NCBI GenBank assembly: GCA_021372895.1
Contig: JAJFTP010000011.1
Location: forward strand, 1 to 36,057
Source: Synergistaceae bacterium
Lineage (GTDB): Bacteria > Synergistota > Synergistia > Synergistales > Synergistaceae
DNA length: 36,057 nt
Reading direction: 5' to 3'
Shown here: piece by piece, positions 8,584-32,941 of the stretch
How the letters are laid out: every line of letters starts with the position of its first letter
Position numbering within the stretch: the stretch's first letter is position 1
Program-made: the position numbers and the translations under genes
Notes under the pieces: model-generated
What the model saw: the letters and a program-made list of their open reading frames with translations, nothing else
What the model was told of the DNA's origin: nothing
The model's database searches: none

Positions 8584-8655
8584 ATATAATGTATTTGACC
8601 CAGCAAACTCAGAAGGCTGAGAATGGGAATTTGAGATGAGGGAACGGTGGTTTTT

Positions 8656-9648
8656 ATGAAGAAAATAGCGGCATTGGTTCTTTTAGTTGCATTATTGGCA
8701 TGCACATCAACACCGATATCTGCAGCTCCAGCACCAAAGGCCGGCTGGCCTTCACAGCTTAAATTCATGTCAGGACCTCCGGGCGGCAACTGGTTTGCAC
8801 TTGGAAGCGCGTTCGCGGATTTATGGAGCAAGAACGTTATCCAGACGACAAGCAGTTCAGGCGGAGGAGTTTCAAACATCATCAACGCTGATGTCAGAAA
8901 AGGGGATTTAGGATTCTCGGTCACTTCTCTCTTAGGCGCAGCAGTCAAAGGAGAACAGGACTTCCTCGGCCGCGCAACAAAGAATTCCGTCGTCATGGCA
9001 AACCTTTATACGCAGTACACCTATTTCATAATGCGCAAAGATTTTGCTAATAAACACAATATCAAGAAGCTGAGCGATATCTTTGACAAGAAAATTCCTG
9101 TTCGCATGGCGACACTGAAACCCGGCACCGCGTCGGAATTCGTAGTCAAGTCACTCTTCATGAAAGGCTACGGCGTGACCTACAAGGATATCAAAAAGAT
9201 GGGAGGCTCTATGGAGTTCGCATCTTATGAGGGCGGCGCGGATCTCCTTGCAGACAACCATATAGACTTGTTTGCTTTCTCCGTAGGCAAAATCGCATCC
9301 ATAGTCATGAATATCGAGAGTACCACCGATATTATCATACTTCCTGTCGATGACGCCGCACTCAAGGCCCTTGCCGATGCATACGGCACAGTTACCTTCA
9401 CAGTTGAGCCCGGAACTTACAAGAGCGTTACAAAACCAGTCAAGACTGTTGGAGACTACACCTGTATAGTTATCCGCAAGGACCTGCCGGATGATCTCGT
9501 TTACGATCTCTGTAAATCTATCTGGACAAACAGGGCGACACTTGCAAGTGCAGTCAAGGACATCTCTGAACTCAATCCTAAGACTGCAGTCCCAAACGGT
9601 GTTCCAGCGCATCCCGGCGCAGTAAAATTCTGGAAGGAAGCAAAGTAG
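8656..9648 (+). CDS. TAXI-family TRAP transporter solute-binding protein
   Basis: Extracytoplasmic receptor that delivers a solute, often glutamate or another organic acid, to the adjacent TRAP permease. 330 residues. Residues 1 to about 25 form a signal peptide (MKKIAALVLLVALLA, then SAAP). The mature start LKFMSGPPGGNWFALGSAFA and SSSGGGVSNI, GDLGFSVTS are typical of TAXI proteins (the TRAP-associated extracytoplasmic immunogenic family), distinct from DctP. ATG at 8656 is used because the signal peptide starts there; GTG at 8647 in the same frame is closer to GAGGGA (8638-8643) and remains possible. The substrate cannot be assigned. Confidence 0.92.
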   Translation: MKKIAALVLLVALLACTSTPISAAPAPKAGWPSQLKFMSGPPGGNWFALGSAFADLWSKNVIQTTSSSGGGVSNIINADVRKGDLGFSVTSLLGAAVKGEQDFLGRATKNSVVMANLYTQYTYFIMRKDFANKHNIKKLSDIFDKKIPVRMATLKPGTASEFVVKSLFMKGYGVTYKDIKKMGGSMEFASYEGGADLLADNHIDLFAFSVGKIASIVMNIESTTDIIILPVDDAALKALADAYGTVTFTVEPGTYKSVTKPVKTVGDYTCIVIRKDLPDDLVYDLCKSIWTNRATLASAVKDISELNPKTAVPNGVPAHPGAVKFWKEAK

Positions 9649-9683
9649 CTGCCGCTCTTCTATCTTTGCCTCTATTCTTTATC

Positions 9684-9711
9684 GACAGGGGCTCTCGTTT
9701 GAGCCCCTGTC
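9684..9711 (+). other. Perfect intercistronic hairpin between TAXI receptor and permease
   Basis: GACAGGGGCTC (9684-9694), six-base loop, GAGCCCCTGTC (9701-9711). There is no T run after it, so it is more likely an mRNA-stabilising or attenuating structure than a full terminator. It would allow more receptor than permease to be made. Confidence 0.6.
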
Positions 9712-9779
9712 AGCATATCTCGACCCGGGCAAGACAGACAGATTTAGTTAAGATCTCCCGCTGAGGAGCGTGTTATTAA

Positions 9780-11657
9780 ATGAGAAAACTTCGTGGCAAT
9801 ACACACAAAATCATGTACATCTACATTGTCATAATAGGCATGTTTCATCTGTACACATCTGTATTCGGAGCATACGAATCATATTTACAGAAGAACATCC
9901 ATCTCGGACTGGTGCTCCCTTTGGCTTTCATCCTTTTCCCGATGACCAGAAAATCACCAGACGACCGGGTCCCGATATACGACTGGATACTAGGCGGGCT
10001 TGCAATGTTACCGTCGCTTTATGTCATACTCAACTATGACGCTATTACGTTACGCATTATACAGGTCGATATCGTCACACAGACGCAGTTCATTCTCGGC
10101 ATCCTGCTCTTCGTGCTCCTCATGGAGGGAACGCGTCGGGTCGTTGGTCTCCCCTTAGTGATCATAGCGTGCATTTTTGCGGGCTATATGTACTTTGGAG
10201 ACAAACTCCCGGGCACTATGCACGGATTATCGTTCCCGCTTCATGAGGTTGTTGAGCAGATATACCTCACTGACGAGGGTATATTCTCCATGCCGCTGGG
10301 TGTTTCTGCAACACTTGTCGCAGCCTTCCTCATATTCGGAGGATTTCTCGAAAAATGCGGCACTGGCCCGTACTTTATGGAAGTCGCACAGGCGTTCACC
10401 GGAACTGCACCGGGCGGTCCGGCGAATATAGCGGTCATGAGTTCCTGTCTATTCGGCTCGATTTCCGGTTCGGCAGTTGCCAACGTTTACGGAACAGGAA
10501 CGTTCACCATTCCGCTTATGAAGAAGCTCGGCTACCCCGCACACTTTGCAGGCGCGGTCGAAGCAGTGGCAAGTTCAGGCGGTCAGATAATGCCGCCTGT
10601 CATGGGAGCCGGAGCGTTTCTCATGGCGTCTTTCCTCGGCGTCCCATTCGCCCAGGTCATGATTGCGGCTATTGTACCGGCGCTGCTCTACTATGGGGCG
10701 GTATTCCTCATGGTACGCCTCGAGGCGCTTAAACAGGGGCTCAAGGGACTCCCCAAGGAAGAGCTTCCCAATAAGCTCGCCGTTCTCAAGAGAGCATACC
10801 TCTTTCTCCCGATAATCGGACTCGTCTATTTTCTGCTCATCGGCTATACGCCGATGCGTGCGGCCGTAATAGGTATTGCCCTTTCATGGGTCGTCTCTCT
10901 GCCGCAAAAAAACAACCGCATGGGACCGCGGCAGATCATTGATGCGATCTACAACGGTGTTAAGAACATCACCCTCGTCTGTGTTGCATGTGCGTCCGCA
11001 GGTATCGTGCTTGGATCTGTTTCGCTTACTGGCGTCGGCGTCAAGCTCATCGGCTTTGTCCTCGCGTTCTCGCATGGCATACCTCTTGTCGCACTATTCC
11101 TCGTCATGATAGTCTCGCTCGTTCTGGGTATGGGGCTGCCAACGACGGGAGCGTACATTCTTGCGGCGGCGCTCGGCGCCCCGATCCTTACAACACTTGG
11201 CTTCCCGCCTCTTTCCGCACACATGTTCGTTTTCTATTTCGCGATAATCTCGAACATAACTCCCCCTGTCGCGCTTGCAGCATACGCAGCAAGTTCAATT
11301 GCCGGCTCCGAGCCGAACAAAACAGGATTCACTGCGTGTAAGCTGGGCTTTCTCGCGTTTGTGACCCCGTTCGCATTCTGCTATGACCCGGGGATCCTTC
11401 TGCAACTGGATTTCATGGGCAACGCCTATGGAATACTCGCGTGTGTCGCTTCCTGCTTCGGTTTTGGCTTTGCGATGATGGGCTACCTGAACCGCAACCT
11501 TTTGAAGTGGGAGCGCGTCGTGTTCGTTGTGCTATCGGTAATGGCGCTTTCGCCTGATAAGATCCTTACCATTACAGGTGCGGTGGGGATTGCCGTGGCG
11601 GCGTTCCTGTTCGGGAAAATAATCAGGAAGGACAATATTACGCCTGCTGCGGTGTAA
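9780..11657 (+). CDS. TRAP transporter permease, fused 4TM/12TM subunits (TAXI type)
   Basis: Integral membrane subunit of 625 residues in which the small DctQ-like part (N-terminal four helices) and the large DctM-like part are one polypeptide, as usual for TAXI systems. Visible blocks are EGTRRVVGLPLVIIA after the small domain, GTAPGGPANIAVMSSCLFGSISGSAVANVYGTGTFTIP, SSGGQIMPPVMGAGAFLMA, and GMGLPTTGAYILAAAL with ITPPVALAAYAA, all characteristic of the large subunit. GAGGAG lies 11 bases before the ATG. It works with the receptor gene upstream and is driven by an ion gradient. A bidirectional terminator follows. Confidence 0.93.
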   Translation: MRKLRGNTHKIMYIYIVIIGMFHLYTSVFGAYESYLQKNIHLGLVLPLAFILFPMTRKSPDDRVPIYDWILGGLAMLPSLYVILNYDAITLRIIQVDIVTQTQFILGILLFVLLMEGTRRVVGLPLVIIACIFAGYMYFGDKLPGTMHGLSFPLHEVVEQIYLTDEGIFSMPLGVSATLVAAFLIFGGFLEKCGTGPYFMEVAQAFTGTAPGGPANIAVMSSCLFGSISGSAVANVYGTGTFTIPLMKKLGYPAHFAGAVEAVASSGGQIMPPVMGAGAFLMASFLGVPFAQVMIAAIVPALLYYGAVFLMVRLEALKQGLKGLPKEELPNKLAVLKRAYLFLPIIGLVYFLLIGYTPMRAAVIGIALSWVVSLPQKNNRMGPRQIIDAIYNGVKNITLVCVACASAGIVLGSVSLTGVGVKLIGFVLAFSHGIPLVALFLVMIVSLVLGMGLPTTGAYILAAALGAPILTTLGFPPLSAHMFVFYFAIISNITPPVALAAYAASSIAGSEPNKTGFTACKLGFLAFVTPFAFCYDPGILLQLDFMGNAYGILACVASCFGFGFAMMGYLNRNLLKWERVVFVVLSVMALSPDKILTITGAVGIAVAAFLFGKIIRKDNITPAAV

Positions 11658-13732: not shown

Positions 13733-14494
13733 TCAGCAGATCATTCCAGCAGCGATAAGAAGCACACAGAGAACAAGGATCACGACATCCGCAGTCCGAA
13801 ACGGATAATTTTTATAGCCGCTGCCGCGTGTGCGGCAGTTGAAGCCGCGAAGCTCCGCAGAGATTGCTGCGCCCTCTGTTTTTCTGACCGATGTTATTAG
13901 CAGCGGCACGCAGAGCGGAAAGATCAACCGCACTTTTTTAAAGAGATTTCCCGTGTCAAACTCGACGCCCCTTGCTGTCTGCGCTTCCATGATTTCCACC
14001 ATTTCTGCTGAAAATACAGGGATAAAACGCATCGCCGTTGTTAACGCAAAGGCATATTTGTATGGTATATGGGCCTTACTTACAAGCACATTGGACAGGT
14101 CGCTCATCTTTGTTACGGACAGCATAAGTGCAAGAGGCAACGTGGCGCCTATAAGACGCAACACCATAAGCAACGAGAATGAGAGGCCCCTGTCTGTGAT
14201 GATGATGTTCAATGGCAGACGGAGCAGTACATGGCCGTCACGGATGAAGAACACCTGCAGAATGAAGAGAAACAGGCAGAACTTAATAAGCACTTTCAGC
14301 ATCCTCAACGCACGGTACACGATTCCCGCCGCAGCCGCCATCGCTACATTGAGGACTGTGATCCCGGCACAGAAGAGATGTCTCTCTGTCACAAAACATG
14401 CGGCACAGAGCATTAATGAAAGAATAAGTTTTGTCATCGGGTTGAGCCTGTGCAACAGCGAATTCCCTGGTATATAATCGAAGAATCCGCCCAT
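13733..14494 (-). CDS. ecfT: ECF transporter transmembrane component EcfT
   Basis: Membrane scaffold that couples the two ATPases to the substrate-binding S component. 253 residues with an opening LNPMTKLILSL typical of the family, several hydrophobic segments, and the paired coupling-helix motifs AQTARGVEFD and AELRGFN (the two A-R-G type motifs that contact the ATPases). Its ATG overlaps the upstream ATPase stop by one base (TAATG). It is the last gene of the T-box-controlled operon. Confidence 0.92.
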   Translation of the reverse strand: MGGFFDYIPGNSLLHRLNPMTKLILSLMLCAACFVTERHLFCAGITVLNVAMAAAAGIVYRALRMLKVLIKFCLFLFILQVFFIRDGHVLLRLPLNIIITDRGLSFSLLMVLRLIGATLPLALMLSVTKMSDLSNVLVSKAHIPYKYAFALTTAMRFIPVFSAEMVEIMEAQTARGVEFDTGNLFKKVRLIFPLCVPLLITSVRKTEGAAISAELRGFNCRTRGSGYKNYPFRTADVVILVLCVLLIAAGMIC

Positions 14495-15300
14495 TATGCT
14501 GTCCTTTTGGCTTTTTTTTCAATGGCCGAAACCATCTCGTCCACCGTAAATATCTCTTCAAATCCATCCCCAAGTCTCAGCGCGAGTCCGGTGATCTGCG
14601 GCGGAAGAAGGGATGCCTGTGCGAGAAGTTTCTTATCACGCAGTATTTCTTTTACCGGACCCTTTGCCAGAAGTTGTCCTCTGTTCAGAACCATTACATC
14701 TTCGGCAAAATCCCCTACTACCTCCATGTCGTGCGAGACCATGAGCACCGTTGTCCCTTGCTTATTTATTGCGCGGACGGATTCCATTATGTGCATACAC
14801 TCGCGATAGTCAAGGCCTGTTGTCGGCTCGTCAAGTATTAGAAGCTCCGGTTTCAGGGCAAGAAGTGAGGCAAGCACAAGGCGCTGTCGCTCTCCGCGGC
14901 TCATCGTAAACGGATCCATCTCACCCTTGAAACCGAAGGCAGCAAGTACCGTTTCACAGCGGCGTTCTGCCTCTTCCCCGTCGTCCATGATGCATCCAAG
15001 TCCAAACATAATTTCGTCACGCACTGTATTTTTGCATATCTGCCTGTCAGGATTCTGAAAAAGGAACCCGGTGAATCTGGCTATGCGGCTAGTCTTTGTC
15101 GAAGCGGTATTAAACCCCCCGACCGCCACGGAGCCGCAGCTTGGCTTCAGAAGACCGTTGCACAGTTTACCGAGAGTCGATTTGCCCGCGCCGTTTGCCC
15201 CGATTAGAGCGGTGAAATCCCCTCGTCTTATATGGAAGGAAACCCCTTTGATGACATCCATTCCTCCCAAGTGACAGACGACATTATCGAAAATTATCAT
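14494..15300 (-). CDS. ecfA: ECF transporter ATPase (EcfA), variant signature
   Basis: Cytoplasmic ATPase of the ECF transporter, 268 residues. Walker A GANGAGKST near residues 34-42, Q-loop FLFQNPDRQICKNTVRDEI, signature MSRGERQRL (in place of the common LSGGQ), Walker B LLILDEPTTGLD, and H-loop VSHD. The C-terminal extension of about 40 residues is normal for EcfA proteins. Its start overlaps the preceding ATPase stop by four bases (ATGA). The non-canonical SRG signature paired with a canonical one in the partner suggests one strong and one weaker ATP site in the heterodimer (inference). Confidence 0.93.
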   Translation of the reverse strand: MIIFDNVVCHLGGMDVIKGVSFHIRRGDFTALIGANGAGKSTLGKLCNGLLKPSCGSVAVGGFNTASTKTSRIARFTGFLFQNPDRQICKNTVRDEIMFGLGCIMDDGEEAERRCETVLAAFGFKGEMDPFTMSRGERQRLVLASLLALKPELLILDEPTTGLDYRECMHIMESVRAINKQGTTVLMVSHDMEVVGDFAEDVMVLNRGQLLAKGPVKEILRDKKLLAQASLLPPQITGLALRLGDGFEEIFTVDEMVSAIEKKAKRTA

Positions 15301-16160
15301 CCTATCGTCCTCCTTACCATCGTCTCCGCCTCTTTTACATCAAGCGGGATATCCCCGCTGTAAAGCCCTCTTTCCGCAAGCCTGTCAGCCAGAGTAACAA
15401 CACGTGGACAATTGACGCCGGCTCCCTCCATCTCACTGCTATGCCTCAGCACGCTGCGGACTGATCCTTTAAAAAGGATTGAGCCCTTCTGCATCACCGC
15501 AAGTTCTTTCGCAAACTCGCAGAGAAGCATGATCTTCTGTTCAACAACCACGACCGTTATGCCGTGTTTTTCGTTAAGTTCGCGAAGAAGATGAAATATC
15601 TGCCTGCTGCTCTGCGGGTCAAGTTCTCCCGTAGGCTCATCAAGAATCAAAATTTCCGGCATAAGGGCAGTAATCGCGCATATTGCGACTTTCTGTTTCT
15701 GCCCGCCGCTGAGCGTTGCTATACTTCTATCACGAAGGTCAGAGATGGACGTCTTTTCAAGTGCACCTGCCAGCCGTGATTCAATTTCGTCCCGCGGTAC
15801 GCAGAAGTTCTCCAGTCCAAAAAGAATCTCGTCCTCGACGACAGAGGCAACCATCTGGCTGTCAAAATCCTGTCTCACGCTTCCGATATGGCGGGCAAGG
15901 TTCTCGGGTGTGCTTTCAAACGTATCAAGGCCGTTCACCCTTACCTCACCGTAGAATTCCCCCTTGAAATGGTGGGGTATTATGCCGTTCATTGCCTGGA
16001 GTAATGTTGTTTTTCCTACTCCGCTGCTTCCGATGATCCCGAGAAAACCGCCTTTTTCAACCGTCAGATTTATATTGTTCAGCGCATAACCATCGCTTCC
16101 GCTGTACCTGAAATACAGATTACGTATGGATATCATAGTTATATCCTTGCTGCCCGACAT
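15297..16160 (-). CDS. ecfA: ECF transporter ATPase (second EcfA)
   Basis: Partner ATPase, 287 residues. Walker A GSSGVGKTT near 44-52, Q-loop SVRQDFDSQMVASVVEDEI, signature LSGGQKQKVAI, Walker B ILILDEPTGELD. In the H-loop position the sequence reads VVVVEQK, so the usual His is replaced by Gln. The start at 16160 has AGGAGAAGG upstream; an internal Met nine codons later has no such site. It is co-transcribed with the TrpP-like gene 24 bases upstream and with the other ATPase and EcfT downstream. Confidence 0.93.
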   Translation of the reverse strand: MSGSKDITMISIRNLYFRYSGSDGYALNNINLTVEKGGFLGIIGSSGVGKTTLLQAMNGIIPHHFKGEFYGEVRVNGLDTFESTPENLARHIGSVRQDFDSQMVASVVEDEILFGLENFCVPRDEIESRLAGALEKTSISDLRDRSIATLSGGQKQKVAICAITALMPEILILDEPTGELDPQSSRQIFHLLRELNEKHGITVVVVEQKIMLLCEFAKELAVMQKGSILFKGSVRSVLRHSSEMEGAGVNCPRVVTLADRLAERGLYSGDIPLDVKEAETMVRRTIG

Positions 16161-16184
16161 TTGCCTTCTCCTTTTATATCGCTG

Positions 16185-16772
16185 CTAGGCTATATTCTTA
16201 CTGTTGTTTGACCGCAAGGTAAGTCTCAGGGGGATATAAAGTATCTGTACAATAACCGCATTTACCGCAGCCGTTCCAAATATGATTCCGAGGAAAATTG
16301 CAAGTGGGACGGGCTTTATATCCGCACCTGCGTAGAAGACAAAATACATGATGCCGATGAATGTAAATCCGCTCGCAAGCGTACTCATAAACGTGCTGAT
16401 TATCGGGATCGGAGAAAACCCGTCCTTTTTCATTGGAAACTTCATAAAAGCAGACATAACAAGTGCTCCTACAAGTTCGCTCGGAAAGTTTATGTAAGGC
16501 GTCCCCGGAAAGAACTGGCAGACCGCGCCGGCCAGAAGTCCGATGATAGCCGCTTCCTTAAACTTCGGTTTGATAAGCAGAATCGCCAGACAATACATTG
16601 CTATTATGAAATTAGGCTTCATGCCCATAGAAAACATCGAGCCGACAAAAAATTTAAGCACAGCTCCTGCTGCAAGAAGGACGCCGACAAGTAATATCTG
16701 CGAAATAGAAAGGCCACCGCCCTTCTGCTCCAAAACCACTCTCTTCTCCATTACCTCTCTTCTCTGCTCCAT
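16185..16772 (-). CDS. trpP: TrpP-like tryptophan transporter, predicted ECF S component
   Basis: Small integral membrane protein of 195 residues with about five or six hydrophobic segments after a charged 20-residue N-terminus. The block FSMGMKPNFIIAMYCLAILL and the following FPGTPYINFPSELVGAL resemble the TrpP (YhaG) family of predicted tryptophan transporters, whose size and topology match ECF substrate-binding (S) proteins. It is the first gene after a T-box leader and is followed directly by two EcfA ATPases and EcfT, so it is the likely substrate-specific subunit. Family assignment is from recalled sequence resemblance; the substrate is supported by the Trp-like T-box specifier but not proven. 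Confidence 0.75.
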   Translation of the reverse strand: MEQRREVMEKRVVLEQKGGGLSISQILLVGVLLAAGAVLKFFVGSMFSMGMKPNFIIAMYCLAILLIKPKFKEAAIIGLLAGAVCQFFPGTPYINFPSELVGALVMSAFMKFPMKKDGFSPIPIISTFMSTLASGFTFIGIMYFVFYAGADIKPVPLAIFLGIIFGTAAVNAVIVQILYIPLRLTLRSNNSKNIA

Positions 16773-16852
16773 CTGCTACCATCCTCTCTCATCTTAAAAA
16801 CAATCTCTTCTCTTCCGTTGCTGTCTGAACCAAGTCTGATCCTGCTCTCTGT

Positions 16853-16891
16853 ATAAAAAAATCTGCCCCTTAGATAATCTAAAGGACAGAT
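16853..16891 (-). terminator. Regulated terminator of the T-box leader
   Basis: ATCTGTCCTTTAGA pairs with TCTAAGGGGCAGAT across a TTA loop (14 pairs, including G-U pairs), followed by a run of seven T. Its 5' arm is shared with the T-box antiterminator, so uncharged tRNA would switch it off. Confidence 0.85.
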
Positions 16892-17111
16892 AATAAACAC
16901 ATCTGCGGTACCACCTTAATTGGCCTGAAAATCAGACCCGCTCTTTCGGACATGCAATGACACGCCCTGTCGTTAACGCCGGCGTACGTCCCGGATACTC
17001 GGTTTACACCTTTCACCAGACCCTCCGTGGCCCATTTGCCGTTCTGCATCTCCGCAGGCTTCTCAGCTCCGCCTGCTCTCTGTAAGGCGCATATAACGGG
17101 TTGATCCCCAC
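16853..17111 (-). promoter_or_regulatory. T-box riboswitch, probable tRNA-Trp specificity
   Basis: The T-box sequence AAGGTGGTACCGC is at 16905-16917 on the minus strand. Upstream are ACAGAGAGC with a GCAGGC/GCCTGC Stem I hairpin (17054-17076), the specifier region, and a GAGTA...CGTTAACG Stem III block. The specifier loop is bounded by helices GTGG/CCAC (17108-17111 with 17027-17030) and CCGTT/AACGG (17095-17099 with 17039-17043). It reads CAAATGGG, and by analogy with glyQS the codon is UGG (17032-17034). AAGG and GCAGAT of the T-box can pair with ATCTGTCCTT to form the antiterminator. The tRNA-acceptor bulge is UGGU, which fits an A discriminator best, whereas bacterial tRNA-Trp usually has G (possible as a wobble pair). 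Confidence 0.85.
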
Positions 17112-17142
17112 ATCATCGGTTTAGCTATTTGTATTGATGGGT

Positions 17143-17171
17143 AAATTATCACTTAAATATATATCTGTCAA
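17143..17171 (-). promoter_or_regulatory. Promoter of the T-box/trpP/ecf operon
   Basis: TTGACA (17166-17171), exactly 17 bases, TAATTT (17143-17148) on the minus strand. It lies just ahead of the T-box Stem I. Confidence 0.75.
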
Positions 17172-20613: not shown

Positions 20614-21627
20614 TTATTTGCTCTTGGGTGCAAACTGTCTGCGAAACTCATTCATGAGATCCTTACCCATATTGGCGTCAAGTTTAACCCAGCTCTTTGA
20701 GATAGCAGCCTGGAGCGGAGCAAGCTCCTTGTCCGTGTAGGTGTATACCTTAATGCCTTTTTTTCTCATCAGGTCCATGTAGCGGGCGTCATCTTTCTTC
20801 GCCTGGTCAATCGATTTTGCCGCAACCTTTGAAACTGCGTCAGAGATGATTTTCTGATCTGCAGGCTTCAGTTTACCCCATGTTTTCTGGCTCATAAGGT
20901 AAGACTCGTTTTCAAGTGAGTAATTTAGCTGATACCAGTACTTCATGGCGTCCTTCAGCACTGTGTAGGCAAGTGCGGGAGGGATTGAAGAAACTGCGTC
21001 ACAGACTCCTGTCTGCATTGACTGGAAGATGTCAGCGTATGGCAGGGATATTGTCTTGTATCCCATTGCCTCAACTCCGGTCTTATATACATCCATAAAA
21101 GGGACACGCGTAAGCACACCCTTGTTGACAGTCGGATTGAGTGGTTCTCTGACCGGCTTTGTACTCCCGAGTCCAATCATCCCTTCGACGTTGAAGCCAA
21201 GAAACTTGACGCCGAGACGGGTATGGAACTGATCCATCTTCGTCGCCATCCATCCGTTGGGCTTGAAAGCCTTCTTGATTCCGTCGTATCCTGTCACGAA
21301 ACCGTTAATATAGACGAGCTCCATTCGCGGGTCAAACTGACTTGGAACGGAGATAAGAGCCATGTCGATTGTACCGCGGATGAGCTCTTCATAGACTAAT
21401 GTATAGTCTCCAAGCTGATTCGCAGGAAAAATTTTAATATCTATCCGTCCGTTTGACTTTGCTGCGACTTCTTTGGCTACTTCCTTCATGAAACCGGTTG
21501 CGGTGTGGTCGGGCGGGAACTGCCCCGCAAAACGCAGAGTCGTCTGCGCAGCCGATGCAATTGTTGCCATTGCCGTAAGGATAAACATTGCTGCAAGTAC
21601 TGATGCAATTTTTTTGATTCTTTTCAT
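20614..21627 (-). CDS. TRAP transporter solute-binding protein, DctP family (orphan copy)
   Basis: Periplasmic receptor of 337 residues. Signal peptide at residues 1 to about 26 (MKRIKKIASVLAAMFILTA, then ASAA). The mature protein begins TTLRFAGQFPPDHTA, with IKIFPANQLGDY, RGTIDMALISV and VLTRVPFMDVY, where the Arg is the carboxylate-binding residue of the family. Start chosen at 21627 with GAGGAG and AGAAGG upstream. It is closely related along its whole length to the receptor at 24686-25693, including GVLTRVP, QSMQTGVCDAV and GIKV. It has its own promoter and terminator and no adjacent permease of its own. Confidence 0.93.
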   Translation of the reverse strand: MKRIKKIASVLAAMFILTAMATIASAAQTTLRFAGQFPPDHTATGFMKEVAKEVAAKSNGRIDIKIFPANQLGDYTLVYEELIRGTIDMALISVPSQFDPRMELVYINGFVTGYDGIKKAFKPNGWMATKMDQFHTRLGVKFLGFNVEGMIGLGSTKPVREPLNPTVNKGVLTRVPFMDVYKTGVEAMGYKTISLPYADIFQSMQTGVCDAVSSIPPALAYTVLKDAMKYWYQLNYSLENESYLMSQKTWGKLKPADQKIISDAVSKVAAKSIDQAKKDDARYMDLMRKKGIKVYTYTDKELAPLQAAISKSWVKLDANMGKDLMNEFRRQFAPKSK

Positions 21628-21799
21628 CCTTCTGTTTCTCCTCTCAAATTGTCCATACGTTATATTTACTTGATCCACAGCCATTTGGCTGTAAAACACT
21701 GATATATATTAGGATTTGCGTCTATTTATACCTCTCCTATAAATCCTATCTATATGCCGAATATTTTTAGGGGATACGGAAAAATGCTTCCGGTTGTTT

Positions 21800-21816
21800 T
21801 TGTACATTGAATACAA
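21800..21816. promoter_or_regulatory. Operator-like inverted repeat at the orphan TRAP receptor promoter
   Basis: TTGTA (21800-21804), seven bases, TACAA (21812-21816). It overlaps the -10 box and the expected start of transcription, the usual place for a repressor such as a GntR-type regulator (the regulator class is a guess). Confidence 0.4.
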
Positions 21817-21843
21817 GATATATTAGAGGTGTGTATCTGTCAA
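21815..21843 (-). promoter_or_regulatory. Promoter of the orphan TRAP receptor gene
   Basis: TTGACA (21838-21843), 17 bases, TATCTT (21815-21820) on the minus strand, about 190 bases before the start codon. A small hairpin (ACAGCC/GGCTGT, 21677-21692) lies in the leader. Confidence 0.65.
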
Positions 21844-22031
21844 CAACAGACTATTTTATATGTGATTATTGGTTATTGTTTAATATAAAAAAAATAAGGG
21901 AATGAAGTTGAATGTTTATGCGCCTTCACGGCAGCATGGACGATATACATTGGTATTACTTATATTATCAATATAAGTATATATTTACATGCGAAGATGA
22001 AAAGTAATGGCAACCGTACTTACAGGCAAAA

Positions 22032-22058
22032 TAAAAACGCCTGCCTCTCAAGCAAGCG
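22032..22058 (-). terminator. Terminator after the small membrane protein gene
   Basis: CGCTTGC, seven-base loop, GCAGGCG, followed by TTTTTAT on the minus strand. Confidence 0.65.
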
Positions 22059-22085
22059 TAATATATCAGATTAATTTTGCCTCTT

Positions 22086-22346
22086 CTATTTATCGAGCGG
22101 TGGAAGCGGGGTTATCTCTTCTTCCTTTGAAAATTCCTTCTTAGGAACCCGTCTTTCCCACCAATTGGCCAAACTCTCCATATATAACTGCGCCCAAACC
22201 GGGTCCGGCCACTTTTTCCTATGCGCTGTGGTGGAGAAACATGCGCACATCATCGCAGCAAAATAAAGATACGGATGCTGGAATGCAAGAGCAGCACCAA
22301 AAAAAATAAAACACAGCGACGCAAACAGATCTTTATAGAAATACAC
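22086..22346 (-). CDS. Small hypothetical membrane protein
   Basis: 86 residues; I do not recognise the family. The N-terminal half is hydrophobic (LFASLCFIFFGAALAFQHPY and YLYFAAMMCACF), enough for one or two membrane segments, and the C-terminal half is charged (RRVPKKEFSKEEE). It starts at GTG with AGGAAG upstream. Evidence that it is a real gene: an extended -10 promoter (TGG-TATAAT) about 40 bases upstream and an intrinsic terminator just after the stop. It lies between the TRAP membrane genes and the orphan TRAP receptor, so it may be related to that transporter, but nothing proves it. Confidence 0.6.
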   Translation of the reverse strand: MYFYKDLFASLCFIFFGAALAFQHPYLYFAAMMCACFSTTAHRKKWPDPVWAQLYMESLANWWERRVPKKEFSKEEEITPLPPLDK

Positions 22347-22381
22347 ACTATCGCTTCCTGTCCCGTAGAAAATATTATAAA

Positions 22382-22390
22382 ATTATACCA
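22382..22390 (-). promoter_or_regulatory. Extended -10 promoter of the small membrane protein gene
   Basis: TGG followed by TATAAT on the minus strand (TATAAT at 22382-22387). The -35 region is poor. Confidence 0.4.
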
Positions 22391-22564
22391 GATAAGATGT
22401 GACTTTTAACCTTTTCGACGATTGCCAATAAGCTGCGCCATTTAGGAAAACCGCTGAGATCCCTGGCTCCCGGACCGTTTGTGCCGTGATCTTATGTAAT
22501 AGGCATGTACTTGGAAACCGACCACGATGCAATTGTTTGTTGGATATATCCACGAAAGCCTGTC

Positions 22565-22622
22565 TAAAAGAAAGGGACTCTCAGCGCATATTTTTATATG
22601 CCCAAGAGCCTCTTTCTTTTTG
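22565..22622 (-). terminator. Terminator of the DctPQM operon
   Basis: Long stem with A-rich base (AAAGAAAGAGGCTC opposite GAGTCCCTTTCTTT) and a loop around GCATATAAAAATATGC, ending in TTTCTTTTA on the minus strand. Confidence 0.75.
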
Positions 22623-22682
22623 TAAATTCAGTGTCAAAGTAAATAAAATAGGTTTATATCTCGCTCCTGGGTATCAATCGGC

Positions 22683-23999
22683 TTACCAAGGAAGGCCAAG
22701 TATGATATGCGGCAGAAAGAGTGATACTCTTGGGATATATGTCGTCACGATAAGAACCGGTATCCAGCAGAGAGCCATTAAGGTCAGGGCCGGTTTCATT
22801 ATCTCGTTTATAGACGCCCCTCCGACTCGCCCGCTCAGATAGAGAACCGGCGCACAGGGCGGTGTTATACAGCCAAGAGCTGTGTTGACTCCGACAATCG
22901 CAGCGTAATGGACTGGGTCAACGCCAAGTTTGGCAATTATTGGCAGCAGGATCGGCGTTGTAAGTACAACAACGCTGATGTCGTCCATGAGCATCCCCAT
23001 CAGAACAAGGAAGACGTTTATCATGAACATTATAATCAACGGATTCTTTGAGATGGAATAGAAGAGGTAGAGCACCTTTCCCGGCAGGTCTTCAAGGATA
23101 TAGAGCCTTGATAGCATCGAGACAGAGTAGAGCATGACCATAATGACGCCGGTCGTGATAGAGCCTTCGATCACTATGGAATAAAGAGTCTTGTAATTGA
23201 GCCCCTTGTAGACGTAAAGTCCGATCGGGATACAGTAGAGGACGGCCAGTGCCGAAGCTTCCGTAGTCGTCATTACTCCTCCGTATATCCCGCCGAGGAC
23301 CATAACCGGCATTACCAGCGCCGGAATTGCAAGATATCCGCGCTTCATGAACATATCCACGCGCTCCTTAGGGGAACGCTTCTGGCTGACAAGTATATCT
23401 TTATTGTTGCGGAGCATCCATAGATTGATAACACTTAGCAGAACTATCGTTACAATTCCAGGTCCGATAGTGGAAAGGAAACAGGCGAGAACTGATATCC
23501 CGCTTATCCACGCGAAGATGATAAGGGTCGCGTTGGGCGGGATCAGCAGCCCAAGCAAAGAAGCGTTGGCCATGAGCGCGCATGCATGCCCCATGGGATA
23601 GCCTCCCGCCTTAAAACGCGGGAACATTATAGCGCCGATGCATGAGAGAGTGGCGCATGCCGCTCCGCAGATTGAACCGAATACCGCACATGAGATTATC
23701 CCGACTACTCCGAGTCCGCCTTTTATGTGGCCCACAAAGACATCGACCATATCTATGAGCTTTTCAGCGATGCGCCCTCTCTCCATAATACCGCCTGAAA
23801 TGATGAACATGGCAATGGCGATCAGGGAGACGGAATTCATCTGAGTAAAGCCGTAGGGGAGAAGCTGGGTCGCCTGATAGCCGGCCTGGTCCACTCCGCC
23901 AAAGAAGATAAGCCAGGCACAGGACGCCATGAAACTGACCGGAACCGGCACACCAATGACAAGACACGCCATTAGAATTACAAGTGCTATATAAATCAT
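22683..23999 (-). CDS. dctM: TRAP transporter large permease subunit DctM
   Basis: Transport-catalysing membrane subunit, 438 residues, within the usual 425-440. It has about 12 hydrophobic segments. Family blocks are GVPVPVSFMAS at the N-terminus, GGIMERGRIAEKLIDM, GGLGVVGIISCAVFGSICGAACATLSCIGAIMFP, and late DDISVVVLTTPILLPI with GCITPPCAPVLYLSGRV. The start overlaps the DctQ stop by four bases (ATGA). A long terminator follows. Confidence 0.95.
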   Translation of the reverse strand: MIYIALVILMACLVIGVPVPVSFMASCAWLIFFGGVDQAGYQATQLLPYGFTQMNSVSLIAIAMFIISGGIMERGRIAEKLIDMVDVFVGHIKGGLGVVGIISCAVFGSICGAACATLSCIGAIMFPRFKAGGYPMGHACALMANASLLGLLIPPNATLIIFAWISGISVLACFLSTIGPGIVTIVLLSVINLWMLRNNKDILVSQKRSPKERVDMFMKRGYLAIPALVMPVMVLGGIYGGVMTTTEASALAVLYCIPIGLYVYKGLNYKTLYSIVIEGSITTGVIMVMLYSVSMLSRLYILEDLPGKVLYLFYSISKNPLIIMFMINVFLVLMGMLMDDISVVVLTTPILLPIIAKLGVDPVHYAAIVGVNTALGCITPPCAPVLYLSGRVGGASINEIMKPALTLMALCWIPVLIVTTYIPRVSLFLPHIILGLPW

Positions 24000-24586
24000 A
24001 CTGTTTTACCTCCGGCAAAAAGGGCTTTTGTCGCTCTGTAGGCTTCCCAGCCAAAGTAATATGACATTGAAACAAGCCCCATGAATATCGGAAGGTAGCC
24101 CGTCCACATTGGGATTCTCCATGCGACGGACTTAGGAATGGCAACCCCTGTCCCCAGAGGCCCCAGGAAACCGAACATGAAGAAATCGTATCCCCACCAA
24201 GTGAAAAGCAATGTGACCCCAAGGGTAATGACGGTCTTTACAAAAATCAGCAGCCTCTTTACGGTCCCTTCTTTAACGTAGGACACAACGAGATCCGCTG
24301 ATACATGCGACCCGGCAAATGCTCCGTATCCTGCACCCATAAAATATAGCCAGAAGGCGAATATCTTGATCCATTCCTCATAGCCATAGAGGTCCATTTC
24401 GAGTATATAACGCATAACTGTTGCTGCGCTTATGATAACAACCAGCAGCATCGCCATCGTAAAACATATGACAGAATAGATGCTGACAGTACATTTGTCA
24501 AAGAAATTCGTTGGTTTTCTTAAAGTTGAAACCGGCACTTCGTATACGTATTCGCTGTACTTCTGCTGTGTTTCTGCTTCAGACAT
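23996..24586 (-). CDS. dctQ: TRAP transporter small permease subunit DctQ
   Basis: Small membrane subunit with four predicted helices, 196 residues. After a polar 35-residue N-terminus come SVICFTMAMLLVVIISAATVMRYI, then the conserved YGYEEWIKIFAFWLYFMGAGYG and GSHVSADLVV (the E-E-W and G-S-H-V blocks of DctQ proteins). ATG at 24586 is used with AGGAG nine bases upstream; a TTG one codon earlier is less likely. It overlaps dctM and lies 100 bases after the receptor gene. Confidence 0.93.
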   Translation of the reverse strand: MSEAETQQKYSEYVYEVPVSTLRKPTNFFDKCTVSIYSVICFTMAMLLVVIISAATVMRYILEMDLYGYEEWIKIFAFWLYFMGAGYGAFAGSHVSADLVVSYVKEGTVKRLLIFVKTVITLGVTLLFTWWGYDFFMFGFLGPLGTGVAIPKSVAWRIPMWTGYLPIFMGLVSMSYYFGWEAYRATKALFAGGKTV

Positions 24587-24616
24587 CAAAAGTTGCTCCT
24601 TTCAAAACAGAAAACC

Positions 24617-24636
24617 GGGGAGGGGCACCCCTCCCC
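24617..24636 (-). other. Intercistronic G-C hairpin between receptor and dctQ
   Basis: GGGGAGGG and CCCTCCCC with a four-base loop, followed on the minus strand by GGTTTTCTGTTTTG. It is a weak terminator or a stabilising structure. It resembles in position the hairpin between the TAXI receptor and its permease. Confidence 0.6.
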
Positions 24637-24685
24637 ATTCGAATTTTCCTGTAAATTACTACAGATAAACTTATCTATCCATTAT

Positions 24686-25693
24686 TTATTTAACAGATTT
24701 GCCTAGGTGCTTCTCAAATTCCTCCATAAGCTCTTTTGTCATCCCGCGCTTACCAAGCTCCGGCCACGTTGTGATGCAGGCTTCTTTGATGGGCTTAAGC
24801 TCTGCTTCGGTATATCTGAATACTTTGATGCCCTTCTTCTCCATAAGGTCCATGTACTTGTTATCTTCTGATTTTGCATTGTCGATGGAGCGAAGTGTAT
24901 ATTTCTTTGCTACTTCCTGGAAAACTTTCTGGTCTGCCGGTGTAAGCTTCTTCCAGGATTTTTCGCTTACCATCATTGCGAGGTATTCCATTGAATAGTT
25001 TGTATGATACCAGTATTTCAGCACGTCGCCGAGTATCGTGTACGCAGCTGCCACAGGATAGCCGTCAACTGCATCGCAGACTCCGGTCTGCATTGACTGA
25101 TAAACATCCGAGTAGGGGATGGTGATCGGACGGAAACCCATTGCCTTTGCGCCGAGGGTATAGACATCCATATTAGGTACACGTGTGAGAACACCCTTGT
25201 CGACCTTCGGGTTAAGGGGTTCTTTGAGAGGTTTCGTTGAGCCGATACCGATCATACCCTCAATATAAGACCCGATCAGTCTTACGCCGAGTGCGCTTGA
25301 AAGTTCGTTAAGTTTGTTGGGGAGCCATGCGCCGGGGACGAAAACTTTCTTCGCCTCGTCGTAGCCGCTCACATAACCGTTGATGTAGACGAGCTCAAGT
25401 CGCGGATCAAATTCACTGGCTATTGACATAAGGGACATGTCGATCGTGCCGCGGATCATTTCTTCCATAACGAGCGAGTAATTGCCGAGCTGGTTTGCCG
25501 GATAGACCTTTATCTCTACGCGGCCGTTGGTCTTCTGTGCGATTTCTTTTGCCATTGCATTCATGGTTTTGGTTGCCATGTGGTCTGGGGGAGACTGTCC
25601 TGCGAAGCGGAAAACAATCGGAGCTGCCGTTGCCGGTGTGACTATCGCTGCAAAGAGGAATACCACTGCTAGCAATACTGCAAATTTCTTCAA
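24686..25693 (-). CDS. dctP: TRAP transporter solute-binding protein, DctP family
   Basis: Periplasmic receptor of the adjacent DctQM permease, 335 residues. Signal peptide about 1-24 (FAVLLAVVFLFAAIV, then ATAAP). Mature start IVFRFAGQSPPDHMA, with PANQLGNYS, EEMIRGTIDMSLMS and VLTRVPNMDVY (Arg near residue 171 expected to hold the substrate carboxylate). The start codon is TTG with GGGAGAG upstream; no ATG near it would keep the signal peptide. It is a close paralogue of the receptor at 20614-21627. The operon order is receptor, DctQ, DctM. Confidence 0.94.
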   Translation of the reverse strand: MKKFAVLLAVVFLFAAIVTPATAAPIVFRFAGQSPPDHMATKTMNAMAKEIAQKTNGRVEIKVYPANQLGNYSLVMEEMIRGTIDMSLMSIASEFDPRLELVYINGYVSGYDEAKKVFVPGAWLPNKLNELSSALGVRLIGSYIEGMIGIGSTKPLKEPLNPKVDKGVLTRVPNMDVYTLGAKAMGFRPITIPYSDVYQSMQTGVCDAVDGYPVAAAYTILGDVLKYWYHTNYSMEYLAMMVSEKSWKKLTPADQKVFQEVAKKYTLRSIDNAKSEDNKYMDLMEKKGIKVFRYTEAELKPIKEACITTWPELGKRGMTKELMEEFEKHLGKSVK

Positions 25694-29142: not shown

Positions 29143-30483
29143 ATGCTGAAGGAACTGGATGTTATCTGGAACGAGTTTAAGATGCACTGTGTGGGGATGC
29201 TTTCCGCTGCGGATAATGCGGCAAAGACATATTTGGATACATGCCTTCCCGTATCTCTTGATGACGGGGTGCTTGTTCTTGACGTACCCACACCATTTGC
29301 CAAGGAACAGATAAAATCCAGATTTCTCACGCAAATGAAGACAATTCTCGCAGAGACTGGTTTTGGAACTGATATTGAGATAAAGGTAAGCCAGGAGACA
29401 AAAGATGATGTGGGTGCGGAGGATCGCGCAATTGCAGCAGCGGCTCCTATAAGGTTTGGGACCAGCCGTAACGGGCTTAATCCCAATTATGTCTTCTCTA
29501 CCTTTGTGGTTGGAAAATCAAACAGGCTTCCCCATGCGGCGTGCCTTGCAGTTGCAGAATCACCCGGTATAGCCTACAACCCTTTATTCATCTGGGGAAA
29601 GGTCGGCCTTGGGAAGACGCACTTGATGCATGCGATCGGACATCACATAGAAAATACTCAGTCTAATACCAAGGTTCTTTATGTCAGCTCCGAAAAATTC
29701 ACAAATGATTTTATAACGGCAATACGAAACAACACCAACGATCAGTTCCGCGCCCGTTACAGGGAATTGGATGTCCTGATGATAGACGATATCCAGTTTA
29801 TTGGTGACAAAGAGGGAACGCAGGAAGAATTTTTTCATACTTTCAACTCTCTTCACAACTCAAAAAAACAGGTAATAATAAGCTCTGACAGGCCGCCGAA
29901 AGATATACAGGGAGTAGAGGACAGGCTTGTATCAAGATTCGAATGGGGCCTTGTAACCGATATACAGCCGCCTGATCTTGAAACACGTGTGGCCATTCTG
30001 CAGAAAAAGGCAGAAATTAAAAATTATACTATTCCTGCTGATATAATTTTATTTATCGCCCAAAACGTACCAAGCAATATCAGGGAGCTTGAGGGCACCT
30101 TAAATCGAGTTGTAGCATGTTCCGAGTTCAACGAAGAGCCGATAAACATGGAAAATGTAACTGTTTGGCTCAAGGATATGATCCGCGAAAATAATTCCGG
30201 TCCTGTCAGCATAGGTCTTATTCAGCAGATGGTTTCGGAGACCTTTGGTTTCTCTATTGATGATCTTTTATCTCAGAACAGAACAGCCGATCTGGCGCTT
30301 GCAAGACAGATCGCCATGTATCTTGCAAGGAATAAGACCGGTGAAAGCCTTCAGCAGATAAGCTATTCGTTTAATAAAAAAGATCACACCACAGTCATTC
30401 ATGCCTGTAAAAAGGTGGAAAAACTCATAAAGACTGATTTACGCGTACGCTCTTTTGTGGATAATATTGCTAGTAAACTATAA
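29143..30483 (+). CDS. dnaA: Chromosomal replication initiator protein DnaA
   Basis: Binds DnaA boxes and opens the origin. 446 residues with the usual four domains. The AAA+ domain has Walker A WGKVGLGKTH (151-160; commonly GGVGLGKT), Walker B VLMIDDIQF (about 211-219), sensor I ISSDRPP and an arginine-finger region RLVSRFEWGL. The DNA-binding domain IV has DHTTVIHACKKVE, the family signature, but is preceded by NKK where most DnaA proteins have a GGR or GR motif. GAGGTGAG sits just ahead of the ATG. It is flanked on both sides by DnaA boxes. Confidence 0.98.
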   Translation: MLKELDVIWNEFKMHCVGMLSAADNAAKTYLDTCLPVSLDDGVLVLDVPTPFAKEQIKSRFLTQMKTILAETGFGTDIEIKVSQETKDDVGAEDRAIAAAAPIRFGTSRNGLNPNYVFSTFVVGKSNRLPHAACLAVAESPGIAYNPLFIWGKVGLGKTHLMHAIGHHIENTQSNTKVLYVSSEKFTNDFITAIRNNTNDQFRARYRELDVLMIDDIQFIGDKEGTQEEFFHTFNSLHNSKKQVIISSDRPPKDIQGVEDRLVSRFEWGLVTDIQPPDLETRVAILQKKAEIKNYTIPADIILFIAQNVPSNIRELEGTLNRVVACSEFNEEPINMENVTVWLKDMIRENNSGPVSIGLIQQMVSETFGFSIDDLLSQNRTADLALARQIAMYLARNKTGESLQQISYSFNKKDHTTVIHACKKVEKLIKTDLRVRSFVDNIASKL

Positions 30484-30711
30484 TTTCCCACTGTGTTTTT
30501 TGTGAATCTATATGTGCATAGATCAGCTTATGTCTTTTTCCACACCGAAATTGTGGATATTGTGGATAAAATAAGGATTCTCTCTTGATTTTATCCACCA
30601 AAAAAATCCTTTCTCTGTCTTGTTTTTTTTGCGTTTTACACATTTCCACAGCACCTATTACGACGAATATTATTTTTTAATATAAAAGAAAAGAAATAGG
30701 GAGGTCTACTT
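30484..30711. other. oriC: Probable oriC (dnaA-dnaN intergenic DnaA-box cluster)
   Basis: In 228 bases: TTTTCCACA (30536-30544), TGTGGATAT (30552-30560), a perfect TGTGGATAA (30561-30569), TTATCCACC (30591-30599), and ATTTCCACA (30642-30650), followed by an A+T-rich stretch (30660-30697). Two boxes are directly adjacent in the same orientation. No genes. This arrangement between dnaA and dnaN is typical of bacterial origins. Confidence 0.75.
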
Positions 30712-31878
30712 ATGAAGCTTATTATCAACAAAAAACAATTCCTGCAGAGCTGGGGGCTTGCCGAGAGAAGCACATCCAGTTCAAGCTCCATGAACATACT
30801 TTCCTCGGTTCTGATAAAAGCTTCCTTTGATGAGGTCTCTCTTCAGGCAACTGATATCCGGACATCCATAATATGCTCCGCTTCCGGCGTTACCGTTGTA
30901 GAGCAAGGAGAAGCGGTTTTCCCGATAAAGATGGTCAGTGATCTATTTAAAAAAGCACCGGGAGAGGAATTTACTCTATCTGTCATTGATGGTAAGGTTG
31001 TTTTGAAGGCAGGAAGGAGCAAGTATAATTTCAGTACATATCCGGTAAGTGAATTTCCGGTCCTTCCTTCTTCCGGATCAGCAAAGCTCTTTTGTAAAAT
31101 TTCAGCGAAAGAACTGACAGAGGTACTGGAAGAGGGAACGCTTGCAGCATCGACAGGTGAAGAATTTCCTCTTTATCTGTCTTCTGCAAATTTTCAGATA
31201 TCGAACGGAATATTGAACATCATATCAACGGATACAAGAAGGCTTGCCCTTTCCGGAGCTGTGGTCCTTGAATCAACAGATGGTGTCAGTTCTCTGCTTC
31301 CTATGAAAGGAGTAAAAGAAGTCCAGAGGATACTTGGGTCTTTAAATCCAAATTCCATAGTTGATATACTTTATGATGATGCTCAGTTTTACTTCAAGGC
31401 GGAAAATGTTGAATTTACAGTAAGACGTGTAGAATCGCGGTTTCCTCCTTATGAAAAAATTCTTCCTAAAAGTAATACAACAAGTATTACTATTGATAGG
31501 GGTGATCTTATTTCCGCACTTGAGCGGGTGGATGTGATTGTAAGGGATTATAACCGTATGGTGATACTTGATATAATTACAGGCGAGAGTTTAGTAATGA
31601 GAGCCAAAGCTCCTGACTTTGGTCAGGCGGTTGAAGAGATAAATGCAGATATAACAGGAGAAACATTAAGAATGGCAGTAAATTCCAAGTTCTTTATGGA
31701 AGCACTTAAAGTAATGCGTGACTCTGATGTGAGACTTACATTTAACGGTCCATCCGGGCATATGGCAGTCAGGCATACAGATAGTGATAAATTTTTATGT
31801 CTTATTGCTCCGATTAATTTATCCGAAGAAGAAATGAAGATAGAAAAAACCGGGATAACTGATGGAGACGGGTTTTAG
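30712..31878 (+). CDS. dnaN: DNA polymerase III subunit beta (sliding clamp)
   Basis: Ring-shaped processivity clamp, 388 residues, slightly longer than the common 366-380. It begins MKLIINKKQFLQSW and continues with three repeated clamp domains; the block DTRRLALSGAV marks domain 2 and FLCLIAPIN the C-terminus in a position corresponding to the usual Y-(L/V)-(I/V)-MP-(M/L)-R end. Here the clamp end is followed by an extra tail of about 20 residues. AGGGAGGT precedes the ATG. It overlaps recF by 17 bases. Confidence 0.95.
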   Translation: MKLIINKKQFLQSWGLAERSTSSSSSMNILSSVLIKASFDEVSLQATDIRTSIICSASGVTVVEQGEAVFPIKMVSDLFKKAPGEEFTLSVIDGKVVLKAGRSKYNFSTYPVSEFPVLPSSGSAKLFCKISAKELTEVLEEGTLAASTGEEFPLYLSSANFQISNGILNIISTDTRRLALSGAVVLESTDGVSSLLPMKGVKEVQRILGSLNPNSIVDILYDDAQFYFKAENVEFTVRRVESRFPPYEKILPKSNTTSITIDRGDLISALERVDVIVRDYNRMVILDIITGESLVMRAKAPDFGQAVEEINADITGETLRMAVNSKFFMEALKVMRDSDVRLTFNGPSGHMAVRHTDSDKFLCLIAPINLSEEEMKIEKTGITDGDGF

Positions 31879-32941
31879 CAGAGTAAGGTTCAATAACTTT
31901 AAAAATCTGGAGCCCCGGGAGATGAAATGGTCCCCGGGGCTGAATTTGCTTACAGGAGTTAATGGCTCAGGCAAGACGAACATACTTGAAGGAATTAATA
32001 TTATATCGGGATGGGGGCCTCTTGAAAGAGGTACCAGAACAAACTCTCTTCCGACATGGAACAGCGGTACCAGTGATGTACAGCTTACAGGACAGTTAAA
32101 CAGCGAATATGGAGAGATAATCAAGGTAAAAATCTCCGGCAGATATTCCATTAAAATAGACGATAAGACGATAAAAGCCGCTGAACTCCGCTGTAAAATA
32201 CCTGTACTCTCTTTTCTTCCAAACGACATGTCCATACTTGAGGATTCCGCATCTTACAGGCGTAGGCTCCTGGATATGATCCTTGCTCTTCTTATCCCCG
32301 CATATGCAGTAAGATTGTGTGATTATAGAAGGGGTATCCGCCAGAAGTCAATATTGCTCGGAAAGGGATACTCCGCCGCCATAGTAGATCGAGCTCTCGT
32401 GTCACTTGCTGCGTGGATATGGAGAATGAGAGAGGAAGCAGTACTGTTGCTCTCAGATTGTATGGAAGGACTGGGGGAACTTTTACCCGCAAGGATAGGA
32501 CTGTCTCTGGCAAGGGGCGGCGCCGGTTTTGCAGAAGACACGGAAGAAGATTATATAAAAGCACTTCAAATCAACAGAGTAAAAGAAGCTGCACTCAGAG
32601 CTTCTGTCGTTGGACCGCACAGGGATGATCTGGTAATAACTGCGGATGGAAAATCAGCAGCAATGTCTCTTAGCAGGGGACTGCGCCGAAGAGTTGCCAT
32701 CGCATTGATGCTTGCAGCATCAGACGGGGTACGCCGAAAGCTTGGCAGAGAGCCGGTGCTGCTTCTGGATGAAGTTACCGCAGAGTTGGATGCAGAGGGA
32801 AGAAAAGTATTGTTTGAAGCGCTGACAGAAAGAAAAGGGCAGGTTTTTGCTGCAACGGCCGAACCGTTCATATCTGGTTTTCCAGGGAAAGTATATACTG
32901 TTTCAGAAGGAAGAGTGATAAGTTCCAATGATGATTTATAA
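31862..32941 (+). CDS. recF: DNA replication and repair protein RecF
   Basis: SMC-like ATPase that loads RecA at gaps, 359 residues. N-terminal FNNFKNLEPREM, Walker A GVNGSGKT (32-39), ABC-type signature MSLSRGLRRRVAIAL, Walker B PVLLLDEVTAELD. The usual signature has more S-x-G-E-Q; here it reads SRGLRR. The start lies inside dnaN with only a weak ribosome site, suggesting coupling. It overlaps mnmG by 14 bases. Confidence 0.94.
   Translation: METGFSRVRFNNFKNLEPREMKWSPGLNLLTGVNGSGKTNILEGINIISGWGPLERGTRTNSLPTWNSGTSDVQLTGQLNSEYGEIIKVKISGRYSIKIDDKTIKAAELRCKIPVLSFLPNDMSILEDSASYRRRLLDMILALLIPAYAVRLCDYRRGIRQKSILLGKGYSAAIVDRALVSLAAWIWRMREEAVLLLSDCMEGLGELLPARIGLSLARGGAGFAEDTEEDYIKALQINRVKEAALRASVVGPHRDDLVITADGKSAAMSLSRGLRRRVAIALMLAASDGVRRKLGREPVLLLDEVTAELDAEGRKVLFEALTERKGQVFAATAEPFISGFPGKVYTVSEGRVISSNDDL

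Follow-up and report, generated by a model that had tools for sequence, protein, structure and literature searches.

In a 36,057-nucleotide stretch of DNA from a Synergistaceae bacterium (assembly GCA_021372895.1, contig JAJFTP010000011.1; hereafter the window), we found a four-gene operon that very probably encodes a self-contained (group I) energy-coupling factor (ECF) type ATP-binding cassette (ABC) importer for tryptophan, preceded by a T-box leader that would sense the charging of tRNA-Trp. Reading of the sequence and of its list of open reading frames (ORFs) placed the four genes, their promoter and their leader all on the minus strand at 13733-17171, with the following features:

TTGACA at 17171-17166, a 17-nt spacer and TAATTT at 17148-17143, minus strand: promoter, by direct reading.
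16879-17125, minus strand: T-box leader, predicted to respond to tRNA-Trp; match to RF00230 with E = 1.4e-20 and 91 bits over model positions 1-219 of 219.
17038-17031, minus strand: 3' side of the specifier loop, CAAA-UGG-G, with UGG at 17034-17032, from the Rfam alignment.
16910-16913, minus strand: antiterminator bulge UGGU, the expected partner of the tRNA 3' end, by direct reading.
16861-16891, minus strand: intrinsic terminator that competes with the antiterminator; a 14-bp stem followed by TTTTTTT, conserved in relatives.
16743-16855, minus strand: AG-rich tract over the trpP ribosome-binding region, a candidate site for the RNA-binding protein TRAP judged by AG density.
16185-16772, minus strand: trpP, 195 amino acids; predicted ECF substrate-binding (S) component.
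15297-16160, minus strand: ecfA1, 287 amino acids; ECF ATPase with LSGGQ retained and the H-loop histidine changed (VVVEQK).
14494-15300, minus strand: ecfA2, 268 amino acids; ECF ATPase with the H-loop SHD retained and a degenerate signature (MSRGER).
13733-14494, minus strand: ecfT, 253 amino acids; transmembrane coupling (T) component.

The genes are packed closely, with 24 nt between trpP and ecfA1, a 4-nt overlap of ecfA1 with ecfA2 and a 1-nt overlap of ecfA2 with ecfT, so the ORFs reproduce the order, gap and overlaps given in the original prediction. The promoter it described is also present at 17171-17143, and a TTGACA followed after 17 nt by a hexamer beginning TA recurs upstream in most of the T-box-bearing Synergistota relatives that we read. 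A generic promoter scan of the window did not list this promoter because its -10 hexamer, TAATTT, shares only 3 of 6 bases with TATAAT.

The T-box leader was likewise borne out, by a match to the full RF00230 model together with a terminator that carries a T-run. A default Rfam scan at the curated threshold listed no element anywhere in the window, because 91 bits falls short of the 93-bit gathering score. The genome holds three T-boxes, that of the window and two others before argG-like and thrC-like genes. The T-box before the argG-like gene (G000:C76:2123-2354, L002) has a plausible CGC specifier, and the one before the thrC-like gene (G000:C60:40170-40400, L003) has the specifier ACC. In the latter, the specifier loop reads GAAG-ACC-A, ACC being a threonine codon, which fits a register of GAA-N-codon-purine. 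This leader fixes the reading register, and the same register yields UGG in the window and not the overlapping AUG. AAAUGG was invariant across nine aligned Synergistota leaders, so the proposed UGG specifier stands. The antiterminator bulge is UGGU in the window; in four of the nine leaders it is UGGC, which would pair with G-CCA at the 3' end of tRNA-Trp, as read with a Synergistota tRNA-Trp query. If the loop in CAAAUGGG were read one base earlier, the AUG overlapping UGG would make this a methionine T-box, and the operon would import a methionine-related compound. This is scarcely credible: the UGG register agrees with the ACC of the thrC T-box, the UGGC bulge of four relatives pairs with G73 of tRNA-Trp, and relatives that lack the T-box carry Trp leader peptides or TRAP-type sites. 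The corresponding base of tRNA-Met is A73. In the favored tryptophan reading, uncharged tRNA-Trp would read UGG with its anticodon and pair its 3' end with the UGGU bulge, stabilizing the antiterminator and letting transcription proceed into the four genes; with charged tRNA-Trp, the terminator would form.

The fold of TrpP supports its assignment as an ECF S component. A hidden Markov model search of the product of 16185-16772 matched the Pfam family TrpP (PF17099; E = 1.8e-8, 34.8 bits against a cut-off of 27.2, model positions 4-169 of 169), as had been predicted, and it matched no other family better; Pfam assigned no family besides TrpP to this product. The same family was matched by 39 of 41 sampled family members. 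An AlphaFold2 model of the window TrpP, built with 72 homologues, has six transmembrane helices (pLDDT 79.7), and its top nine Foldseek matches in the PDB were all chains of the S components RibU, YkoE or ThiT (probability 0.51-0.97, TM-score about 0.42-0.57, E of 0.26 and up). A Clostridia homologue gave a six-helix model of higher pLDDT (87.5), whose first 13 PDB matches were RibU, ThiT, PanT and FolT-type chains with probabilities up to 1.00, TM-scores up to 0.61 and a best E of 0.018. A search of the PDB with the TrpP sequence profile returned no match, and the likeness to S components emerged from the fold comparison only. The profile does align over nearly its full length with two ThiT proteins encoded behind TPP riboswitches (E about 0.003). 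In the first transmembrane helix, position 30 holds a small residue and position 34 an alanine in 72 of 72 sequences; in group II ECF transporters, this small-xxx-Ala motif makes contact with the T component (PMC5037267).

The partners of TrpP are well-marked ECF proteins. EcfT matches Pfam CbiQ (E = 2.9e-27), finds its best PDB match in EcfT (4hzu_T, E = 9.4e-22) and retains the two arginine coupling motifs, ARG and LRG. Both ATPases resemble solved EcfA chains; the best PDB match of EcfA1 is 4mki_B (E = 1.5e-43), and EcfA2 matches the ECF_ATPase_2 profile with 2.1e-61, although under that profile's cut-off. From the gene content and order, the T-box and terminator, the S-component-like fold and the replacement of the regulator among relatives described below, we infer the substrate, the docking, the transport and its direction: TrpP would bind tryptophan outside the cell and then dock on EcfT, after which ATPase action by EcfA1-EcfA2 would power release of tryptophan inside.

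We then examined 80 relative loci of 53-79% identity, found with TrpP peptide patterns. They belong to Synergistota, Treponema and further spirochaetes, Clostridia and an Oligosphaera, plus a record with the label Desulfarculales. The complete set trpP-ecfA1-ecfA2-ecfT, in this order, was present in 68 of the 80, spanning at least three phyla. Ten of the rest run off their contig, L145 lacks only a confident EcfA2 call, and L117 has trpP alone. Three genomes seemed to carry a trpP-ecfA1 fusion through automatic ORF extension; this proved to be an artefact, with an in-frame stop in both sequences that we read. Among 188 Synergistota genomes, 23 gave a TrpP match with E ≤ 0.01, of which at least one weak match is really ThiT. 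The survey of gene neighborhoods thus agrees with the dedicated energizing module that had been claimed. Group I ECF transporters are defined by having a dedicated module encoded in the same operon (PMC5037267), and the conserved arrangement supports placing the TrpP system there.

One could propose that TrpP works instead on a shared ECF module, leaving the adjoining EcfAA'T to serve another substrate. The genome does contain a second, shared-type ECF set of two ATPases and EcfT in a ribosomal-protein region (G000:C60:57500-64500, L193), TrpP shares the small-xxx-Ala motif with group II S components, and one relative (L117) has trpP without companions. Yet the strict order of overlapping or nearly touching genes in 68 relatives and the single common leader tie TrpP to its neighbors, and with a second full ECF set already on hand for shared duty, we regard this arrangement as very improbable. 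The neighbors of the L193 set itself resemble a ribosomal-protein gene and truA.

A tryptophan importer is also suggested by what replaces the T-box in relatives, a change of regulator that the original prediction had missed. T-boxes recur before the operon in other Clostridia, according to a motif search. Trp-rich leader peptides precede the operon at 8 of 77 loci, where 0.02 would be expected. In these (L078, L087, L092, L097, L113, L114, L119 and L120; some Synergistota relatives, of genera g11-g13), a short ORF with WWW, WWRW or WWQW takes the place of the T-box, and in most of them a terminator hairpin comes next, as in ribosome-type attenuation, here of an ECF transporter. In several Clostridia, GAG/UAG triplets set 2-3 nt apart form long TRAP-type series (z up to 13), and the TRAP gene was present in all ten genomes with such repeats that were tested. 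Tryptophan is the common denominator of T-box, leader peptides and TRAP-type control, which is strong but indirect evidence. Because relatives without the T-box use other tryptophan sensors, and given the function of B. subtilis TrpP, tryptophan is very likely the transported substrate. Spirochaetes carry a palindrome near GTTnCTATATATAGnAAC, often doubled and within 160 nt upstream of trpP, at 25 of 33 loci (allowing up to two mismatches; among them L085, L091, L094, L101 and L105), and it occurs zero times in 263 kb of surrounding DNA. Its regulator may be a TrpR-like protein. TrpR-like matches (PF01371) gave no link to this operator, as neither of the two TrpR-like loci that we read holds the palindrome.

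Regulation by a tryptophan sensor would serve uptake of a precursor or relative of tryptophan (indole, anthranilate, kynurenine or a Trp dipeptide) equally well. There are two trpB genes in the genome, and trpB turns up without a detected trpE in several relatives, which would suit indole salvage. On the other side, four relatives (G170, G172, G147 and G159) keep the transporter though neither trpE nor trpB was detected, and a biosynthetic precursor would be useless to them. Moreover, deletion of B. subtilis trpP raises resistance to 5-fluorotryptophan, an analog on which that TrpP acts (PMC13170310). We consider such a substrate unlikely relative to tryptophan itself. We had also considered whether the missing trpE makes the organism a tryptophan auxotroph; this was rejected, since its trpC-F-B-A genes stop at a contig edge and the missing trpE therefore proves nothing.

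The ATPase pair has a distinguishing feature. The H-loop histidine of EcfA1 was replaced in 77 of 77 sequences, with EQK in nearly all, and the signature of EcfA2 was SRGER or a near variant, not SGGQ, in about 70 of 70. In two Synergistota genera, the Walker B motif of EcfA1 is LDN in place of LDE. In contrast, the H-loop histidine is retained in all five aligned PDB chains, and in the shared ECF set of the same genome both ATPases keep the histidine and a normal SGGQ, giving two normal ATP sites. Thus, one ATP site of the TrpP module appears to be degenerate. Given how ABC dimers are known to be arranged, the intact site would combine the Walker motifs and H-loop of EcfA2 with the LSGGQ of EcfA1, and the opposite site would be the degenerate one. 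ATP hydrolysis is therefore probably asymmetric. Heterodimeric ABC exporters likewise carry a degenerate ATP site. We found no description of such a site in the EcfA pair of TrpP modules in the open-licence literature that we searched.

A further layer of control is suggested by the AG-rich tract that covers the ribosome-binding region of trpP. Around its start, trpP has 20.8 AG per 100 nt, the highest density among 30 gene starts in the window and double that of the runner-up; the 29 other genes have at most 10.4. The same genome encodes TRAP (PF02081, E = 1.3e-33; G000:C2:9538-9735, L158), its gene (mtrB) sitting between DNA polymerase III alpha-like and pyruvate kinase-like genes. Among Synergistota carriers of the operon, the TRAP gene was present in 11 of 11 with a T-box and in 0 of 9 without one, counts that come from few genera and are not independent. 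In T-box leaders, the 70 nt before trpP contain 14.3-22.9 AG per 100 nt in TRAP-positive genomes (n = 13, including two Clostridia) versus 2.9-11.4 in TRAP-negative ones (n = 11; Mann-Whitney p = 3.7e-5, uncorrected for kinship). Tested against dinucleotide-preserving shuffles, the spacing of the triplets in the window lacked significance (z = 0.08; p = 0.68), and we dropped the assignment of a TRAP site from spacing alone. Because TRAP blocks translation of trpP in B. subtilis, at its start region (PMC11255114, PMC13170310), dual control of the trpP mRNA by T-box and TRAP is plausible by analogy, and TRAP with bound tryptophan may additionally block trpP translation here. The degenerate ATP site and the AG-rich tract, both overlooked in the original prediction, may both be new features. 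The bolder proposal, that these transporters form a distinct ECF subfamily with one permanently degenerate ATP site and, in some lineages, T-box control of transcription doubled by TRAP control of trpP translation, is tentative, with a little under an even chance in our estimate.

Four observations weigh against the picture of a dedicated, T-box-controlled tryptophan ECF importer. The T-box scores 2 bits below the RF00230 gathering score. The Foldseek E-values are individually weak (0.26 for the window TrpP and 0.018 for the Clostridia homologue). The 80 relatives are not independent of one another, because they were found by TrpP patterns and are fairly close. Finally, the Treponema locus L117 (1415-2011), the sole clear exception in the 80, has trpP without adjoining ECF genes, making solitary use of TrpP possible.

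Parts of this system have precedents. The role of TrpP as an ECF S component, inferred in the original prediction, agrees with the fold and has been stated before: one paper counts B. subtilis TrpP as one of the ECF S proteins of that organism (PMC11487621), and an annotation pipeline uses the label "Substrate-specific component TrpP of tryptophan ECF transporter" (PMC12021177). B. subtilis TrpP (YhaG), a tryptophan uptake protein counted as an ECF S protein, belongs to the same Pfam family as the window protein; in contrast to the window, it is one of six S proteins beside a single general EcfA1/EcfA2/EcfT set (PMC11487621). TRAP is apparently the sole regulator of tryptophan import in B. subtilis (PMC13170310), whereas the window has a dedicated module behind a T-box. 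The group I transporters YkoEDC, BioMNY and NikM resemble the window in encoding S, A and T components as a dedicated set, and YkoEDC is also riboswitch-controlled, by a THI box (PMC5037267). The window differs from these in its predicted amino-acid substrate, its tRNA-sensing leader and its two separate ATPases with one degenerate site; small-xxx-Ala, present in the window TrpP, is missing from YkoE. TrpXYZ of Streptococcus suis is, as is predicted for the window system, a tryptophan ABC importer under a Trp T-box (PMC9382623), but it consists of a substrate-binding protein and separate permease (TrpX, TrpY, TrpZ) with no ECF S component. The "TrpP" of Corynebacterium glutamicum was set aside as a relative; it is described as an SdpI-like protein, and the shared name is probably coincidental (PMC11995493). 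Thus, TrpP as an S component (PMC11487621, PMC12021177) and a T-box on a tryptophan ABC importer (PMC9382623) are known, and a dedicated TrpP ECF module under a T-box appears to be new within the open-licence papers searched.

The combination of T-box and TRAP also has a precedent, the rtpA-ycbK (at) genes of B. subtilis, which encode anti-TRAP and YcbK and not a tryptophan importer. These two genes lie in one operon. Induction of rtpA works via a Trp T-box, while TRAP targets the start region of ycbK (PMC11255114).

Elsewhere in the window, dnaA-, dnaN-, recF- and mnmG-like genes, judged by reading, stand in a row at 29143-34826, so that a replication origin may lie in or near it. At 20614-25693 and 8647-11657, DctP-type and NMT1/TAXI-type solute-binding genes accompany large membrane proteins. 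These are tripartite (TRAP-T) transporters, which have nothing to do with the RNA-binding protein TRAP.

ECF import of tryptophan is asserted in the literature with few experiments behind it. A self-contained four-gene set, in which the transporter is constant and its regulator is swapped between lineages, lends itself well to reconstitution and gives a firm indication of the substrate. Should the conserved degenerate ATP site prove real, one could test whether both ATPase sites of an ECF importer have to work. If the arrangement of T-box and TRAP is true, one importer would read both the charging of tRNA and free tryptophan.

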